Source: Planctomycetota bacterium
GTDB taxonomy: Bacteria > Planctomycetota > Phycisphaerae > SM23-33
Direction: 5' to 3'
NCBI GenBank assembly: GCA_024275995.1
Contig: JAJRYB010000054.1
Span: forward strand, 1 to 38,131
Length of the DNA stretch: 38,131 nt
A program made the translations under genes and the position numbers. This document shows, piece by piece, positions 5,755 through 35,488 of this stretch. Under the pieces are notes generated by a model. That model saw only the letters and a list, made by a program, of their open reading frames with translations, did no database searches and had not been told where the DNA came from. The stretch's first letter is position 1; each line of letters begins with the position of its first letter.

Positions 5755-5932
5755 GAAAACGCCCCTTTTGCTCGCTCAAAAAGACCAGCGGATGCTCGAA
5801 ATCACCCCGGAAAATATTTTTTTATATTTCTCGCCTGAATAAGAACTTGCGCACATCACTTTCCCAAAAGTTACCTGTTCGGGTGGTCAAAACGTGGGTA
5901 TTCGCCCAAGTATGGAAGGCTCGCATTACGCT
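5755..5932 (+). repeat. Dispersed repeat, copy A (partner at 36506-36683)
   Basis: Shares gaaaatatttttttatat and gggtattcgcccaagtatggarggctcgcattacgc (35/36) in the same order and spacing as copy B. Confidence 0.8.
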
Positions 5933-7062
5933 CGGTTTTCGCTCATGGTTTCCATGATGCGCAGGTAGCTGTCGTATCGACGCGGATTGATAAGCCCTTC
6001 CTGCACGGCGACGACGACGGCGCAGCCCGGCTCGTGAGTGTGGGTGCAGTCGTTGAACCGGCACTGGTGGGAGTTCTCTTCGAACTCCGGGAAGTACCAC
6101 GGAAGCTGCGCCGCGTCGAGGCGTATGCCCAACTCCCGGATACCCGGCGTGTCCACGACGATGCCGCCTCCCGGTAAATCGTAAATCACCGAGGCGCTGG
6201 TGGTGTGTCTGCCCCGATCGTCCTTCTCACGAATCGATCGCGTTACGACGTGGGCGTCGGGAATGAGGGCGTTTATCAGCGTGCTCTTGCCGACGCCGGA
6301 AGCCCCGGCGAGGATGCTCCGATGGTTCGCAAGGCGGGACGCCAGCGCGTCCATGCCTTCGTTTGTCTTGGCCGAGCACGCCAGCACCTCCATTCCAAGG
6401 TCGCGGAATTCGGCGATAACCGACTCGTCCGGCGAGGCGAGGTCGATCTTGTTGACTACCAGCACCGGCTGGAGTTCGCCGCGCTGTGCGATTATCAGGA
6501 ACCGGTCGATCAACCCTCGGCGAAGCGCGGGTTTCCGCGTGGCCGCTACGATCAGCAGCAGGTCCATGTTGGCGGCTATGACTTTATGGAACGTGTCGCG
6601 ACCGTATTCGTCGCGACGTTTCCCGGACCTCGGCTCAGGTCGCAGAAGCACGGTGTCCCGCCGGTGGCGTGAGATAATCATCCCGTCCATGCGGTCCTTG
6701 TCGATGTCCTTCTGCCCGCTGGTATAGTCCGCCGGGCTCATCGCCACGGTCACCACGTCCCCGACAGCCAGCGGCGACGAATCTTCGGGCGCACGGAACG
6801 TCTTTGCGATACCGCAGAAAAGCCGCTTGCCTTCGACGCGGACGAAAGTGCCCCGACGGAACAACCCGACGACCATTCCCTCCTTGCGATCCATTCCGCA
6901 GGCTTCCTCGTCGGAGGCTGCGAACGCCTCCTCGCGCAGCTTGACCGCGCGGTGCGAGAGTTTGCTACCGTGCAGGGCGGCCTCCTCGACGTCCTGGCCG
7001 GCGTGATATCGCTGCTGCCAATTGCGGACTCTGCGTTGCGACTTGCCTTTTCGTCTTACCAT
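5926..7062 (-). CDS. rsgA: Ribosome small subunit-dependent GTPase RsgA
   Basis: Circularly permuted GTPase: NKIDLAS, GASGVGKSTLIN, DTPGIRELG, zinc site CRFNDCTHTHEPGCAV. Start chosen at MVRRKGKSQRRVRNW. Confidence 0.92.
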   Translation of the reverse strand: MVRRKGKSQRRVRNWQQRYHAGQDVEEAALHGSKLSHRAVKLREEAFAASDEEACGMDRKEGMVVGLFRRGTFVRVEGKRLFCGIAKTFRAPEDSSPLAVGDVVTVAMSPADYTSGQKDIDKDRMDGMIISRHRRDTVLLRPEPRSGKRRDEYGRDTFHKVIAANMDLLLIVAATRKPALRRGLIDRFLIIAQRGELQPVLVVNKIDLASPDESVIAEFRDLGMEVLACSAKTNEGMDALASRLANHRSILAGASGVGKSTLINALIPDAHVVTRSIREKDDRGRHTTSASVIYDLPGGGIVVDTPGIRELGIRLDAAQLPWYFPEFEENSHQCRFNDCTHTHEPGCAVVVAVQEGLINPRRYDSYLRIMETMSENRA

Positions 7063-31326: not shown

Positions 31327-32610
31327 CGCCTTTTCCTTCCGACGGCCAAGGCGATCGACAATCGCAAGCCAGCCGAAGGCGGCGGCGATATTCAGCAGCC
31401 CCGTGACGGGCACGCGGAAGCGCGGCGTGCTAGCGGTACCGCCCGCAAACGCCGAGACAAGGACGAGCAGAAAGAAAAACCGGCACGTCGCTGACATCCG
31501 CAGCCGGAGCTTTTTCAGAACGCCGATCAGAACGCCGAAGTAAATCGCCAGCAGGATGAGCACCATAGGCACGGCCGCGATCATCGCTGCGATATCACCG
31601 TCGAAGTAATGTTTCGCAGCCGACCGGATTCCGCGCGTCCGCAGCACGTCAAGCGTACCGGCCTGCCCTTTGGTCATACCGGCGATTTCGAGAACGTCGG
31701 TAGCGCCGGGTAGCCAGAATCCGGCGCACCCTTTCAGATGGATCCGCGCGAACGTCCACGGATACTTGCCGATTACCTGCAAGGCCGCATCGGCTCGAAG
31801 ACGGGCGCGATCGCCGGGGGTTGATCGGTCAGTGGGCGACCGGCTCTTTTTCAGAAGTTTCGCGCGTGCATCTTCCATACTTATCCCCTCTGCCTGCGCC
31901 AGCGTTTGCGGCGCACTGTAAGCGTACATGCTGTCGGTGGCGAAGCTGGAAAAGCCCCAATACCCCCCGGCCGCCTGGTTCCGCAGCACCCACGGCGCGA
32001 TGCACGCCAGCACCACCCCGGTAAAGACTCCGGTATTCCACAGGCGTTGCGGGCGCGTCAGAAGCACGAGTGCGAACACCCCCGCCATCGCCAGACCGAC
32101 CGGGCGAAAGTAACAGGCAGCCGACAGCAATATCGCCGAAGCTACCAGCGCTCGAAAACTGCCTTTCTTGATATGCCTCACAAGCAGCAGTACCGATAGC
32201 ATGAAAAGGAACGCGTAGACACTGTCGGACAGCACCCGGCAGCTCGCAGCCACGACGAGTGGTGTTATCGCCTGGAAGGTAGCCGCGATAATCGCCGCCC
32301 GACGCGATACAACCATCGCAGCCAGCTTCCAAACCAGTGCGACCAGTGCAACGTCCAGCAGGATCTGCACGAAGAAAAGTAATCCCCTCTCGGCACAGGC
32401 GGCAATCAGGAGCGGATAGCCGGGCGTGCGGAAGATTTCCGGCGAGTGTCGCGGACCAAATGTACCGTCGGCGCGCAGGTCGTCGGCAAGAGCGGCGTAA
32501 TCGCGGGAATCCGGCGTAAGCAGGCCGGGTGAATCCCAACCCGCGTAAAGCAACCCTGCGCGGGTCGCCACTGCCAGAAGCAACACGATCAACAATGCCC
32601 GGCATTTCAT
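31306..32610 (-). CDS. Multi-pass glycosyltransferase family 39-like membrane protein
   Basis: LTPDSRDYAALADDLRADGTFG...FRTPGYPLLIAA N-terminal loop and many TM segments. Confidence 0.7.
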   Translation of the reverse strand: MKCRALLIVLLLAVATRAGLLYAGWDSPGLLTPDSRDYAALADDLRADGTFGPRHSPEIFRTPGYPLLIAACAERGLLFFVQILLDVALVALVWKLAAMVVSRRAAIIAATFQAITPLVVAASCRVLSDSVYAFLFMLSVLLLVRHIKKGSFRALVASAILLSAACYFRPVGLAMAGVFALVLLTRPQRLWNTGVFTGVVLACIAPWVLRNQAAGGYWGFSSFATDSMYAYSAPQTLAQAEGISMEDARAKLLKKSRSPTDRSTPGDRARLRADAALQVIGKYPWTFARIHLKGCAGFWLPGATDVLEIAGMTKGQAGTLDVLRTRGIRSAAKHYFDGDIAAMIAAVPMVLILLAIYFGVLIGVLKKLRLRMSATCRFFFLLVLVSAFAGGTASTPRFRVPVTGLLNIAAAFGWLAIVDRLGRRKEKASSGEPS

Positions 32611-32652
32611 AGGGGTATCCTATGGCGACGGGAAGCCTGTTACAATGTCCCC

Positions 32653-33300
32653 GTGAGCACAACACTTATCGTCAACGAAATATTCCGATCCGTCCAGGGC
32701 GAGGGAACCCGCGCCGGAAGTATCTGCGCGTTTGTGCGTCTGACGGGGTGCAACCTGCGATGCAACTGGTGCGATACGCGCTACGCCTGGGACGACGGCA
32801 GGCCGATGGAAATCGCCGACGTGCTCGCCCGCCTCGCCGAGCTGCACTGCCCGCTCGTGGAGGTAACGGGCGGCGAGCCACTTCTCCAATCCGGCGCGAC
32901 GGAGCTGCTCGAACGCCTGTGTGACGAAAATTACGAAGTGCTCCTGGAGACAAACGGATCGTATAACATTTCCTCGGTGGATTCGCGCGTCGTGCGAATC
33001 GTGGACTTCAAGTGCCCCTCCAGCGGACATGTGAGCGCCAACAAGTGGATAAATGTCGAGTACCTGACGGGCCGCGACGAGGTGAAATTCGTAATCGCGG
33101 ATCGCGATGATTTCGATTTCGCCGTGGAAGCTCTCCGGGAGCACGACCTTTCGGGAATATGCACGGTGATCTTCTCGCCTCTCTGGAACGCAATGGACAC
33201 GGCGGTACTGGCAGGCTGGCTGATCGAAGAAGGATTGGACGTGCGGCTGGGATTGCAATTGCATAAAATCATCTGGCCGGATGAAGAACGCGGAGTTTAA
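32653..33300 (+). CDS. queE: 7-carboxy-7-deazaguanine synthase (radical SAM)
   Basis: VNEIFRSVQGEGTRAG, FVRLTGCNLRCNWCDTRYAW, VTGGEPLLQ; GTG start; near queD. Confidence 0.94.
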   Translation: MSTTLIVNEIFRSVQGEGTRAGSICAFVRLTGCNLRCNWCDTRYAWDDGRPMEIADVLARLAELHCPLVEVTGGEPLLQSGATELLERLCDENYEVLLETNGSYNISSVDSRVVRIVDFKCPSSGHVSANKWINVEYLTGRDEVKFVIADRDDFDFAVEALREHDLSGICTVIFSPLWNAMDTAVLAGWLIEEGLDVRLGLQLHKIIWPDEERGV

Positions 33301-33310
33301 CCCGCGTTTT
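33287..33310 (+). terminator. Hairpin spanning the queE stop, possible weak terminator
   Basis: aacgcgg-agtttaac-ccgcgtt followed by ttc. Confidence 0.5.
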
Positions 33311-33311
33311 C

Positions 33312-33780
33312 ACCACAAAGAGCACAAAGATCACGAAGAGAAAAAACATTATATCAAATGGAAATCATCTTCCGATTCCCGAAGATTTAGACCGTGCGTC
33401 GAACGAGGTTATCGGCGCAGCGATTGAGGTTCACCGCCATCTTGGTCCGGGTTTTTTGGAGAGCATCTACGAAACTGCGCTCGTGTACGAGTTGCAACTG
33501 AGAGGGCTGGAGGTGGCGCAACAGGTGGCGATCTCCACGGCATACAAGGATATCGATATCGGAGGACAACGCGTCGACCTGCTGGTTCAGCCGGGGTTGG
33601 TGGTCGAATTGAAAGCAGTGGACACATTGTTACCCATCCACGAAGCGCAACTTCTGAGCTACCTGAAGGCAGGGCGATTTCGCTTGGGTCTCCTGATCAA
33701 CTTCCATGTGGAACAATTAAAACAGGGCATAAGACGCATGGTTTATTAAACCTTTGTGTTCTTCGTGTCCTTTGTGGTTA
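33312..33780. mobile_element. Second candidate GxxExxY cassette bounded by 28-bp inverted repeats
   Basis: Left 33312-33339 accacaaagagcacaaagatcacgaaga; right 33751-33778 reverse complement accacaaaggacacgaagaacacaaagg (22/28); both are three 9-mers of form NNcacRaag. Confidence 0.55.
33358..33749 (+). CDS. GxxExxY family protein, start region probably disrupted
   Basis: In-frame NHLPIPEDLDRASNEVIGAAIEVHRHLGPGFLESIYETALVYELQLRG...GLVVELKAVDTLLPIHEAQLLSYLKAGRFRLGLLINFHVEQLKQGIRRMV. The only nearby ATG (33358) is in another frame. Confidence 0.7.
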
Positions 33781-33803
33781 AGGTTGAGGTTGAGGCACAG
33801 AAA

Positions 33804-34166
33804 ATGAAAGCAGAATTGGTAAAGACATTTCGATTCGAGGCGGCACACTCGCTGCCCCGCGTTCCGGAAGGGCACAAGTGCCACCGGGTGCACGGGCACA
33901 ATTATCGTATCGACATTCACATCGCCGGCGAGGTGGACGCCGAGGCCGGCTGGGTGATGGACTTCGGCGAGCTGAACCGCATCGTCGAGCCTCTCCTCGA
34001 CGAGCTGGACCACCGTTATCTCAACGATATCGAAGGCCTGGAAAACGCCACCAGCGAGCTGCTCGCAAAATGGCTGTGGGATCGCATCTCGCCGAAGCTC
34101 CCTCAGTTGTCCGCGATCGGCGTGTGGGAATCCGACACGTCGCGATGCGTCTATCGCGGGCAGTAA
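33804..34166 (+). CDS. queD: 6-carboxy-5,6,7,8-tetrahydropterin synthase QueD
   Basis: FRFEAAHSLPRVPEGHKCHRVHGHNYRIDIHI, GWVMDFGELN, LDHRYLNDI, NATSELLAKWLW. Confidence 0.95.
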   Translation: MKAELVKTFRFEAAHSLPRVPEGHKCHRVHGHNYRIDIHIAGEVDAEAGWVMDFGELNRIVEPLLDELDHRYLNDIEGLENATSELLAKWLWDRISPKLPQLSAIGVWESDTSRCVYRGQ

Positions 34167-34174
34167 AGAAGCCT

Positions 34175-35488
34175 CTACTTCGCGCCGCAGCAGCGCTTGT
34201 ACTTCTTCCCGGAACCGCACGGACACGGGTCGTTGCGCCCGGGCGTTTTTTTCGGCAGCGGACCGGCGGCTCCGGGTGGCGGACCCGCTTCGAACCGCTC
34301 CCTCCGCTTCGCGCCGGTGGCGCCGTTCTCCAAAGGCGCCTTGGGCGGAGGAGTTTCGTTGCGCTTGAAATATTCCGCCATTCGGCGAAGCTCCCCCAGC
34401 GCCTCGCGGAAGAACATCTTGTAACCCTCGCAGAACCAGTTCACCCGCGACGGGTCGGTGCCGATCGGCACGTGATGCTTGGGACAGCCCGCATTGCACA
34501 ACGAGAGGAACTCGCAATCGCGGCAGGTATCCGGCAGGAGAGTTTTCATTTCGGCGAACTCGTCCAGTTTTTTCGATCGGACAAGCTGCGACAGCGGCGT
34601 TTCGTGAATGTTGCCGATCAGCCACGGCCTGTAGACGAAGTGATCGCACGCGTACAGGTCGCCGTTGAATTCCAGCACGTGCGCGTTGGCGCATCGCCCG
34701 GAATGGCAGCACATGGACGCCTTCTGAAATATCAACGTGTGCAATACGTTGTCGATGAACCGCTCGGAAACCTTGCCTATGTCCCGGCTCGCCCACTGCT
34801 CGAAGACGTCCAGGCAGAAATTTCCGAACTGCCCGGCCGTGCACGAATAGTCCGTAACCTCGCCGGACGGCGTGCGTTCGAGAATCGGAATAAACTGGAG
34901 GTAATTCACCCCGCGATTGACGAAGTAGCGGTAGATATCCCCGGCGTGCGGCGCGTTGACGCTGTTAAGCGTAACCAGCACGTTGAACTCGACGCCGTGT
35001 TTCTTGAGCAGTTCCAGCCCCGCCCACGCGCGATGGAAGCTCGGTCCACCGGCCTTGTCCACGCGAAACGCGTCGTGCCACTGGGCAGGCCCGTCCAGGC
35101 TCAGACCGATGAGGAATTTCTCCGCGGCGAAAAACTCGCACCACTGGTCGTCCAGCAGCGTACCGTTGGTCTGGAGGGCGTTGGCTACGTCCTGCCCGTC
35201 GCGCAGAGACTCTTTCTGCAATCGGACCGCTTTTCGGAAAAAGTCCTTCCCCGCCAGCAGCGGCTCTCCCCCCTGCCAGCCGAACTCGACGTGAACCTCC
35301 ATCGCCTCCATGTACTGCCGAGTGTACGCCCCGAGCGTCTCGTCGCTCATCATGAAACCGCTCTCTTGGGAGACTTCGGGGTACAATTCCCGCGGCTTCA
35401 TGGTGTAGTAGCAGTACCGGCAATCGAGGTTGCACACGCCGCAGACGGGCTTAGCCATGATATTGAAGGGGCGGACCGGTTCGCTCAT
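34175..35488 (-). CDS. Anaerobic sulfatase-maturase-like radical SAM/SPASM protein with C-terminal SEC-C motif
   Basis: KPVCGVCNLDCRYCYY, WQGGEPLLAGKDFF, QTNGTLLDDQWCEFF, SPASM cysteines, C-term GRNDPCPCGSGKKYKRCCG. Confidence 0.88.
   Translation of the reverse strand: MSEPVRPFNIMAKPVCGVCNLDCRYCYYTMKPRELYPEVSQESGFMMSDETLGAYTRQYMEAMEVHVEFGWQGGEPLLAGKDFFRKAVRLQKESLRDGQDVANALQTNGTLLDDQWCEFFAAEKFLIGLSLDGPAQWHDAFRVDKAGGPSFHRAWAGLELLKKHGVEFNVLVTLNSVNAPHAGDIYRYFVNRGVNYLQFIPILERTPSGEVTDYSCTAGQFGNFCLDVFEQWASRDIGKVSERFIDNVLHTLIFQKASMCCHSGRCANAHVLEFNGDLYACDHFVYRPWLIGNIHETPLSQLVRSKKLDEFAEMKTLLPDTCRDCEFLSLCNAGCPKHHVPIGTDPSRVNWFCEGYKMFFREALGELRRMAEYFKRNETPPPKAPLENGATGAKRRERFEAGPPPGAAGPLPKKTPGRNDPCPCGSGKKYKRCCGAK

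Follow-up and report, generated by a model that had tools for sequence, protein, structure and literature searches.

The queE and queD genes of the window (the whole 38,131-nucleotide stretch of DNA analysed here) are separated by a small gene of the GxxExxY family that lies between short inverted repeats, and the locus raises the question of whether gene and repeats form a single element and, if so, whether that element follows a general design. To our knowledge, no function is known for GxxExxY proteins. The family is common and uncharacterized, present in about half the genomes sampled from the window's phylum, and has attracted little literature; the passages of a reverse-transcriptase survey that mention it make no link to repeats or mobility.

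A nuclease gene between mirrored heptamer arrays

The upstream gene of this host operon, queE (32653..33300, plus strand), has its best match to TIGR04349 at 264 bits, below the model cut-off of 300, and ends with a stop codon at 33298-33300, whereas the downstream gene, queD (33804..34166, plus strand; TIGR03367, 109.5 bits, above cut-off), begins with an ATG at 33804. The GxxExxY gene (33375..33749, plus strand) lies between them, recognized by its profile matches, open frame, and conserved residues as encoding a RecB/Cas4-like PD-(D/E)XK nuclease of the subgroup we call subfamily A. Its product scores 139.7 bits against TIGR04256 (cut-off 35) and 139.6 bits against PF13366 (cut-off 22), the latter being the only domain detected in a domain search. 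These matches, together with the coordinates of the two neighbors, bear out the first-pass annotation, which had described a GxxExxY copy splitting queE and queD. Although the frame is open, it contains no ATG, GTG, or TTG upstream of the GxxExxY motif, and the nearest ATG, at 33358, is in a different frame; this copy therefore either uses a rare start codon, such as the ATT at 33375, or has lost its start. A search of positions 32600-34200 against Rfam at the gathering threshold gave no match.

The left arm (33312..33338, plus strand) reads ACCACAAAG-AGCACAAAG-ATCACGAAG, and the right arm (33752..33778, minus strand), read inverted, ACCACAAAG-GACACGAAG-AACACAAAG. Each comprises three NNCACRAAG units, whose CACRAAG heptamers lie at 33314-33320, 33323-33329, and 33332-33338 on the left and at 33752-33758, 33761-33767, and 33770-33776 on the right, with 2-nt spacers, and 22 of the 27 positions are identical between the arms. 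This agrees with the three 9-mers per side and the 22 of 28 matches reported on first inspection, the 28 counting one extra base, and an inverted-repeat search recovers the same pair as 30 nt with 80% complementarity, 413 nt apart. Next to the left arm is outer end A (CCCGCGTTTTCAC; 33301..33313, plus strand), whose T-run before ACC matches the C-n4-TTTTT-Y-ACC end of the CACRAAG elements elsewhere in this genome; at the right arm is outer end B (GTTAAGGT, inverted ACCTTAAC; 33777..33784, minus strand), which is TTCATAACC in the genome's elements and CCTTAACC here. With up to two mismatches, the two-unit pattern CACRAAGNNCACRAAG occurs five times in the window against an expected 0.69, a count reached by none of 100 shuffles, and its four exact matches are all in the arms of the queE/queD element. 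Genome-wide, the three-unit pattern at the same tolerance has 57 matches, compared with 0 for a reversed control pattern.

A paralogous gene of a second subfamily, B (10949..11341, plus strand; TIGR04256, 135.5 bits; PF13366, 130.7 bits), is located elsewhere in the window between arms of another kind: GATGAACNCA-type units of period 10 on the left and a GATGAACGCA-type arm on the right (11411..11433, minus strand). The left arm of this element, with some of its flank, is tandemly duplicated at 10833-10984 with an offset of 82 bp, giving an outer copy at 10846..10868 and an inner copy at 10928..10950 (both plus strand), and the start codon of the gene consequently falls within the inner copy. 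The source genome holds five GxxExxY genes in all, and all five lie between inverted micro-repeats, each of its own kind (NNCACRAAG, GATGAACNCA, NNCGCAGAG, NNCACAGAG, and ACACAGAG/ACAGAG type). The copy with NNCACAGAG arms (L002; G000:C61:32694-33038) keeps its arms intact and carries an in-frame TAG; it is a decayed copy.

A minimal PD-(D/E)XK fold with little phage or plasmid carriage

In an alignment of 71 GxxExxY proteins, E29, D68, E78, and K80 are invariant and Q92 and Y96 are conserved in at least 90%; judged from this alignment, the E, D, ExK, and QxxxY residues correspond to the catalytic pattern of RecB/Cas4-type PD-(D/E)XK nucleases. An AF2 model of the queE/queD protein has a pLDDT of 96.5, and its nearest folds by Foldseek are lambda exonuclease and Cas4 SSO0001, with a probability of about 1 and E values of 0.006-0.03, above 0.001. 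A sequence search for relatives of solved structure returned none. The match to Cas4 and lambda exonuclease extends to the fold and the D..ExK..QxxxY residues; unlike those enzymes, the GxxExxY protein is half the size, has no iron-sulfur cysteines in its conserved columns, and in the window adjoins no CRISPR or recombination partner gene. PADLOC gave only weak matches to Cas4 models (E 0.0045 for the window protein), with no match to a specific defense model.

Carriage by phages or plasmids was considered and rejected. GxxExxY genes occur in 8 of 72,556 plasmid records, all classed as non-mobilizable by typing; a search of 50,697 phage records found none, and 2.9 million viral contigs contain only 7 matches.

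Matched arms accompany GxxExxY genes across phyla

To compare these genes with others, we scored the left flank against the inverted right flank. From 80 loci in named genomes, 73 had sufficient flank, and a score of at least 17 is reached by 54 of these 73 GxxExxY genes but by only 9 of 274 neighboring genes (medians 22.5 and 10.5). Of 217 distinct proteins or loci from many phyla, a set that combines the named-genome loci with those of the window's phylum, 181 have flanks that outscore 60 shuffled versions of themselves. Within a set of 117 loci, 96 exceed 100 shuffles, and for 74% of loci the locus's own arm pair is in the best 5% of pairings. By these flank-score tests, roughly 17-26% of GxxExxY loci have no clear arms. 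Inverted micro-repeats are thus enriched at GxxExxY genes relative to others, as the first-pass annotation had anticipated, and its proposal of a general rule, a GxxExxY protein with periodic inverted termini, is upheld by both this enrichment and the co-variation described below.

GxxExxY genes are found in 70 of 149 sampled genomes of the window's phylum and also in other bacterial phyla and in archaea, at 1-15 copies per genome and at unrelated sites. The named loci span 17 phyla, archaea included, over which the protein tree requires 35 phylum changes against a minimum of 16, an excess that indicates transfer between phyla. Found in at least 17 phyla of bacteria and archaea, this design of gene plus matching arms probably represents an undescribed kind of small DNA element, and probably a mobile one.

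Arm type follows protein subfamily

We typed arm classes by simple patterns at 181 loci; because 40 of these remained in an "other" class, co-variation was tested as CRCNNAG arms against the rest. CRCNNAG arms accompany 88 of 101 subfamily-A loci (NFN..LKDGI) compared with 30 of 80 others (Fisher p 3e-12). On the protein tree, arm class changes 15 times, as opposed to 41-62 times in shuffles, and of the pairs compared within single genomes, 23 are concordant and 3 discordant. The two paralogs of the window fit the same scheme, subfamily A having CACRAAG arms and subfamily B GATGAACNCA arms. The first-pass annotation had considered these two terminal-repeat families unrelated in sequence and had read them as a sign of a general rule; the rule stands, as does the proposed co-variation of protein and termini, with the refinement that the two families, far from unrelated noise, track the two protein subfamilies.

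The arms of each locus keep a common register

The usual arm consists of three CRCNVAG heptamers, 1-3 nt apart, with ACC at the start and T-rich sequence outside. In 98% of cases the k-th spacer is equally long on both sides, against 44% for mispaired loci, and the variable bases of the units agree in 87% (51% mispaired), whereas the spacer bases themselves agree in only 60% (40% mispaired). This poor matching of spacer letters indicates that the arms are not recent copies of one another. Spacer pattern changes 25 times over 62 loci on the protein tree, compared with at least 26 and a mean of 33 in shuffles, and the changes occur in both arms together. Because spacing varies, yet equally in both arms, pairing or register of the heptamers is favored over a fixed protein footprint, and we infer selection for mutual arm register, that is, for heptamer pairing. 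As the spacers pair poorly, a hairpin formed by these arms would be interrupted.

Whether such pairing would occur in RNA or in DNA can be approached through the mismatches. An RNA-specific helix predicts an excess of G.U among arm mismatches, and this excess is absent: on the sense strand, mismatches within units are 24:19, with no G.U bias, and over all arm positions 393:343 (p 0.07), A.C being as frequent as G.U. The lack of a G.U excess would favor DNA over RNA as the site of pairing. In the predicted RNA fold of the queE/queD element, the arm helix is present in the centroid structure; the whole element folds no better than shuffles (z -1.4 as RNA, -0.5 as DNA).

Gene-less hairpins share the arms

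Most CACRAAG hairpins of the source genome have no gene inside. About a dozen gene-less hairpins of 83-258 bp carry the same CACRAAG arms and are polar, with one end of the form C-n4-TTTTT-Y-ACC and the other TTCATAACC; the queE/queD coding element has its C-n4-TTTTT-Y-ACC-type end at the left. Conservation around CACRAAG elements ends about 8-13 nt beyond the arm, and three of the gene-less hairpins (on C22, C61, and C7) have homologous loops. A second genome, G115, contains hairpins of about 90 bp with 4+4 units and common outer flanks, along with one ~490-bp copy that has the same arms and a frameshifted GxxExxY gene inside. At another G115 locus with CACRGAG arms (L421; G115:C69:55530-56160), the loop contains a further inverted repeat, GCGACCCGTCTTTGTTT / AAACAAAGACGGGTCGC, which may be a second hairpin nested in the first.

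Across the 149 genomes of the phylum, the median number of arrays is 5 in the 70 with a GxxExxY gene and 1 in the 79 without (p 6e-7), and at least 20 arrays are present in 18 of the 70 as opposed to 1 of the 79. A control pattern in the same two sets gives 70 and 66 matches, showing no difference. Three genomes in which no GxxExxY gene was detected nevertheless have many CRCRRAG arrays (G051, 47; G063, 19; G039, 14), and these represent either hairpins without a resident enzyme or incomplete assemblies. The arms, their mutual matching, their co-variation with protein subfamily, and the existence of gene-less relatives with defined ends are all read directly from sequence.

A repeatedly occupied junction in Bacteroides

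The junction between radA and a FAD gene in Bacteroides allows the presence and absence of the element to be compared at one site. In B. finegoldii and relatives, the junction is filled, the stop and start codons lying 475-478 bp apart, and in several other species a spacer of 1-13 bp contains no element. At two further loci of this junction, L375 and L200, the GxxExxY elements differ in their arms and encode proteins only 53-60% identical, a combination that indicates that the site has been occupied more than once; another, L370, retains a 50-bp one-armed remnant. Neither a target-site duplication nor an exact excision scar was resolved there, the empty sites in Bacteroidaceae being too diverged. 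Between two filled species (L191/L192), the GxxExxY gene has a dN/dS of 0.04 at a dS of 1.2, with no change in the right arm. By these comparisons, the nuclease at this junction has been inherited vertically and kept under strong purifying selection, a pattern that also fits a host function. Presence and absence with replacement at one site, purifying selection, and retention of the catalytic residues are likewise read from sequence.

The 66-80 bp spacers of four other loci at the junction (L353, L355, L363, and L365) start with (G)RCACTGAT, some of them repeating TCACTGATG; they may be what is left of an old GAT-type arm.

Models for the element

Hairpin-ended elements are known from the REPIN/RAYT and IS200/IS605 systems, in which a small HUH/Y1 transposase gene is associated with hairpin ends and gene-less hairpins made of inverted pairs are dispersed in the genome. 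We hold it somewhat better than an even bet that the queE/queD gene, together with its arms, forms one inserted element of a REPIN/RAYT-like kind, whose arms pair as DNA and whose own nuclease acts there. The element would consist of a nuclease gene of ~125 residues between mirrored heptamer arrays of matching identity and spacing. The arms would fold on each other in DNA, most likely as a hairpin on single-stranded DNA or as a cruciform, and the encoded nuclease would recognize and cut the paired-heptamer end, thereby moving or maintaining either the coding element or a gene-less hairpin that shares its arms; the gene-less hairpins would be non-autonomous copies. Action of the nuclease on the arms, a route through DNA and not RNA, and movement by the element's own activity are the steps that we infer here.

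The anatomy is also very near that of the intervening sequence (IVS) in Coxiella 23S rRNA, a 428-nt insert with an S23p ORF and 28-bp terminal inverted repeats that is excised by RNase III (PMC4990558). An RNA-level element of this sort, in which pairing of the arms within the operon transcript would create a stem for RNase III to cleave, rendering the insert harmless, and spread would occur via RNA, would gain from the arm helix in the centroid RNA fold, from S23p/four-helix (TIGR02436) genes outside rRNA that lie in like arms at 22 of 30 loci, and from the orientation of elements located between co-transcribed genes, which is sense by 45:6. That sense excess, however, equals the 46:7 of ordinary genes, and RNA-coupled insertion, which it had suggested, was dropped. 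The mismatches without sense-strand G.U bias (24:19 and 393:343) also speak against the RNA route, as do the lack of an Rfam match at the queE/queD site and the fact that the site is not rRNA, and we regard this explanation as unlikely. A module that serves the host, with a resident housekeeping, defense, or regulatory nuclease and arms that act as an operator or cis-regulatory hairpin for the operon, would account for the dN/dS of 0.04 and the conservation of arms at one site over a dS of 1.2, and for the near absence of the family from plasmids, phage records, and viral contigs. Such a module is difficult to reconcile with sporadic presence (70 of 149 genomes) and 1-15 copies at unrelated sites, with empty and re-occupied sites, with decayed copies (the in-frame TAG of L002 and the broken gene of L423), and with dozens of gene-less hairpins and transfer between phyla; we judge it improbable.

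If instead the micro-repeat hairpins were independent entities moved by another enzyme, the GxxExxY and four-helix genes would merely be captured passengers. The greater number of gene-less than coding hairpins, the unrelated small TIGR02436 genes in comparable hairpins, and the arrays in genomes without a detected GxxExxY gene (47 in G051) would all suit this explanation. The 23:3 match of arm type and subfamily within genomes and the dependence of array abundance on gene presence are not expected from it, however, and the units at TIGR02436 genes are of a different, G/T-rich kind, as though ends were specific to each family, so capture as passive cargo appears highly improbable. That purine-rich intergenic DNA merely looks repetitive has a negligible chance of being correct. 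Single arms are indeed short and degenerate, but the 57 matches against 0 for the reversed control, the 54 of 73 genes against 9 of 274 neighbors, and the 98% agreement in spacer length contradict an origin in composition; reversed-pattern control, shuffles, neighboring genes, and mispaired flanks all agree that the arrangement is not due to chance, as had been suggested at first pass.

Likenesses to known systems and a parallel in TIGR02436 genes

The favored element, a nuclease gene with DNA-pairing arms of its own, resembles REPIN/RAYT in its dispersed gene-less hairpins, in the dependence of their number on the enzyme gene, and in the purifying selection on the enzyme. It differs from both REPIN/RAYT and IS200/IS605 in that the enzyme is of the PD-(D/E)XK type, with no HUH/Y1 transposase found, in that the ends are arrays of 3-4 heptamers that vary between loci and match within a locus, and in that the hairpin encloses the gene itself, of which a genome has several copies. 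Like MITEs and autonomous DNA transposons, it has terminal inverted repeats, with coding and gene-less copies alike in their termini and bounded by defined outer ends; unlike them, it has no DDE transposase, and its ends are a matched pair that changes together instead of one fixed sequence. Free-standing homing endonucleases likewise involve a small intergenic nuclease gene, and the Bacteroides junction re-occupied in several species is reminiscent of them, but GxxExxY genes occupy many unrelated sites, and homing involves neither matched arms on the flanks nor gene-less pairs of arms. A group II intron differs in its catalytic intron RNA, for which the Rfam search of 32600-34200 gave no match.

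With the IVSs of 23S rRNA, the element shares an insert of ~430-480 nt with one small ORF and terminal inverted repeats of ~28 bp, host sequence that is otherwise intact, and patchy, horizontal spread. The differences are its location outside rRNA, at queE/queD, its PF13366 rather than S23p ORF, and its heptamer-array arms with mismatches that have no RNA-type bias. A search of open-access journal literature found no description of elements composed of GxxExxY/PF13366 genes plus arms, and to that extent the kind of element is new. Its enzyme would be of a type with which hairpin-ended elements are not known to work, and because the genes are accompanied by matched ends of their own, the family gains a testable substrate. 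The reading of gene plus ends would also account for a large group of hairpins found between genes in the genomes of uncultured organisms.

The inverted micro-repeat rule is not unique to GxxExxY. In the window's phylum, 22 of 30 loci of TIGR02436 genes, which encode four-helix bundles, have inverted micro-repeat flanks that score above 60 shuffles, and their arms are built of other, mostly G/T-rich units such as GGTTAATCGGTTAACC, GTTAGTGGTTAGTG, and GTGTCTGGTGTCTGG (L047:1400-1910, L048, and L320-L348). This parallel arrangement suggests a wider design, and it may explain the source of 23S rRNA IVSs, whose origin has been called unclear (PMC4990558). More tentatively, and with rather less than even confidence, we propose a kingdom-wide class of mobile elements in which a minimal PD-(D/E)XK nuclease would recognize DNA hairpin ends of 3-4 heptamers, enzyme and ends would co-diversify, and gene-less hairpins would be moved in trans; TIGR02436, with its G/T-rich arms, would then constitute a second, independent system of like design and the 23S rRNA IVSs its specialized offshoot.

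The window also contains a repeat of a different kind. A sequence of ~178 bp is present twice in direct orientation, at 5757-5934 and 36507-36685, with about three quarters of positions identical, and the minus strand of each copy of this dispersed repeat has a short reading frame that looks conserved (HTWANT..TGNFW).
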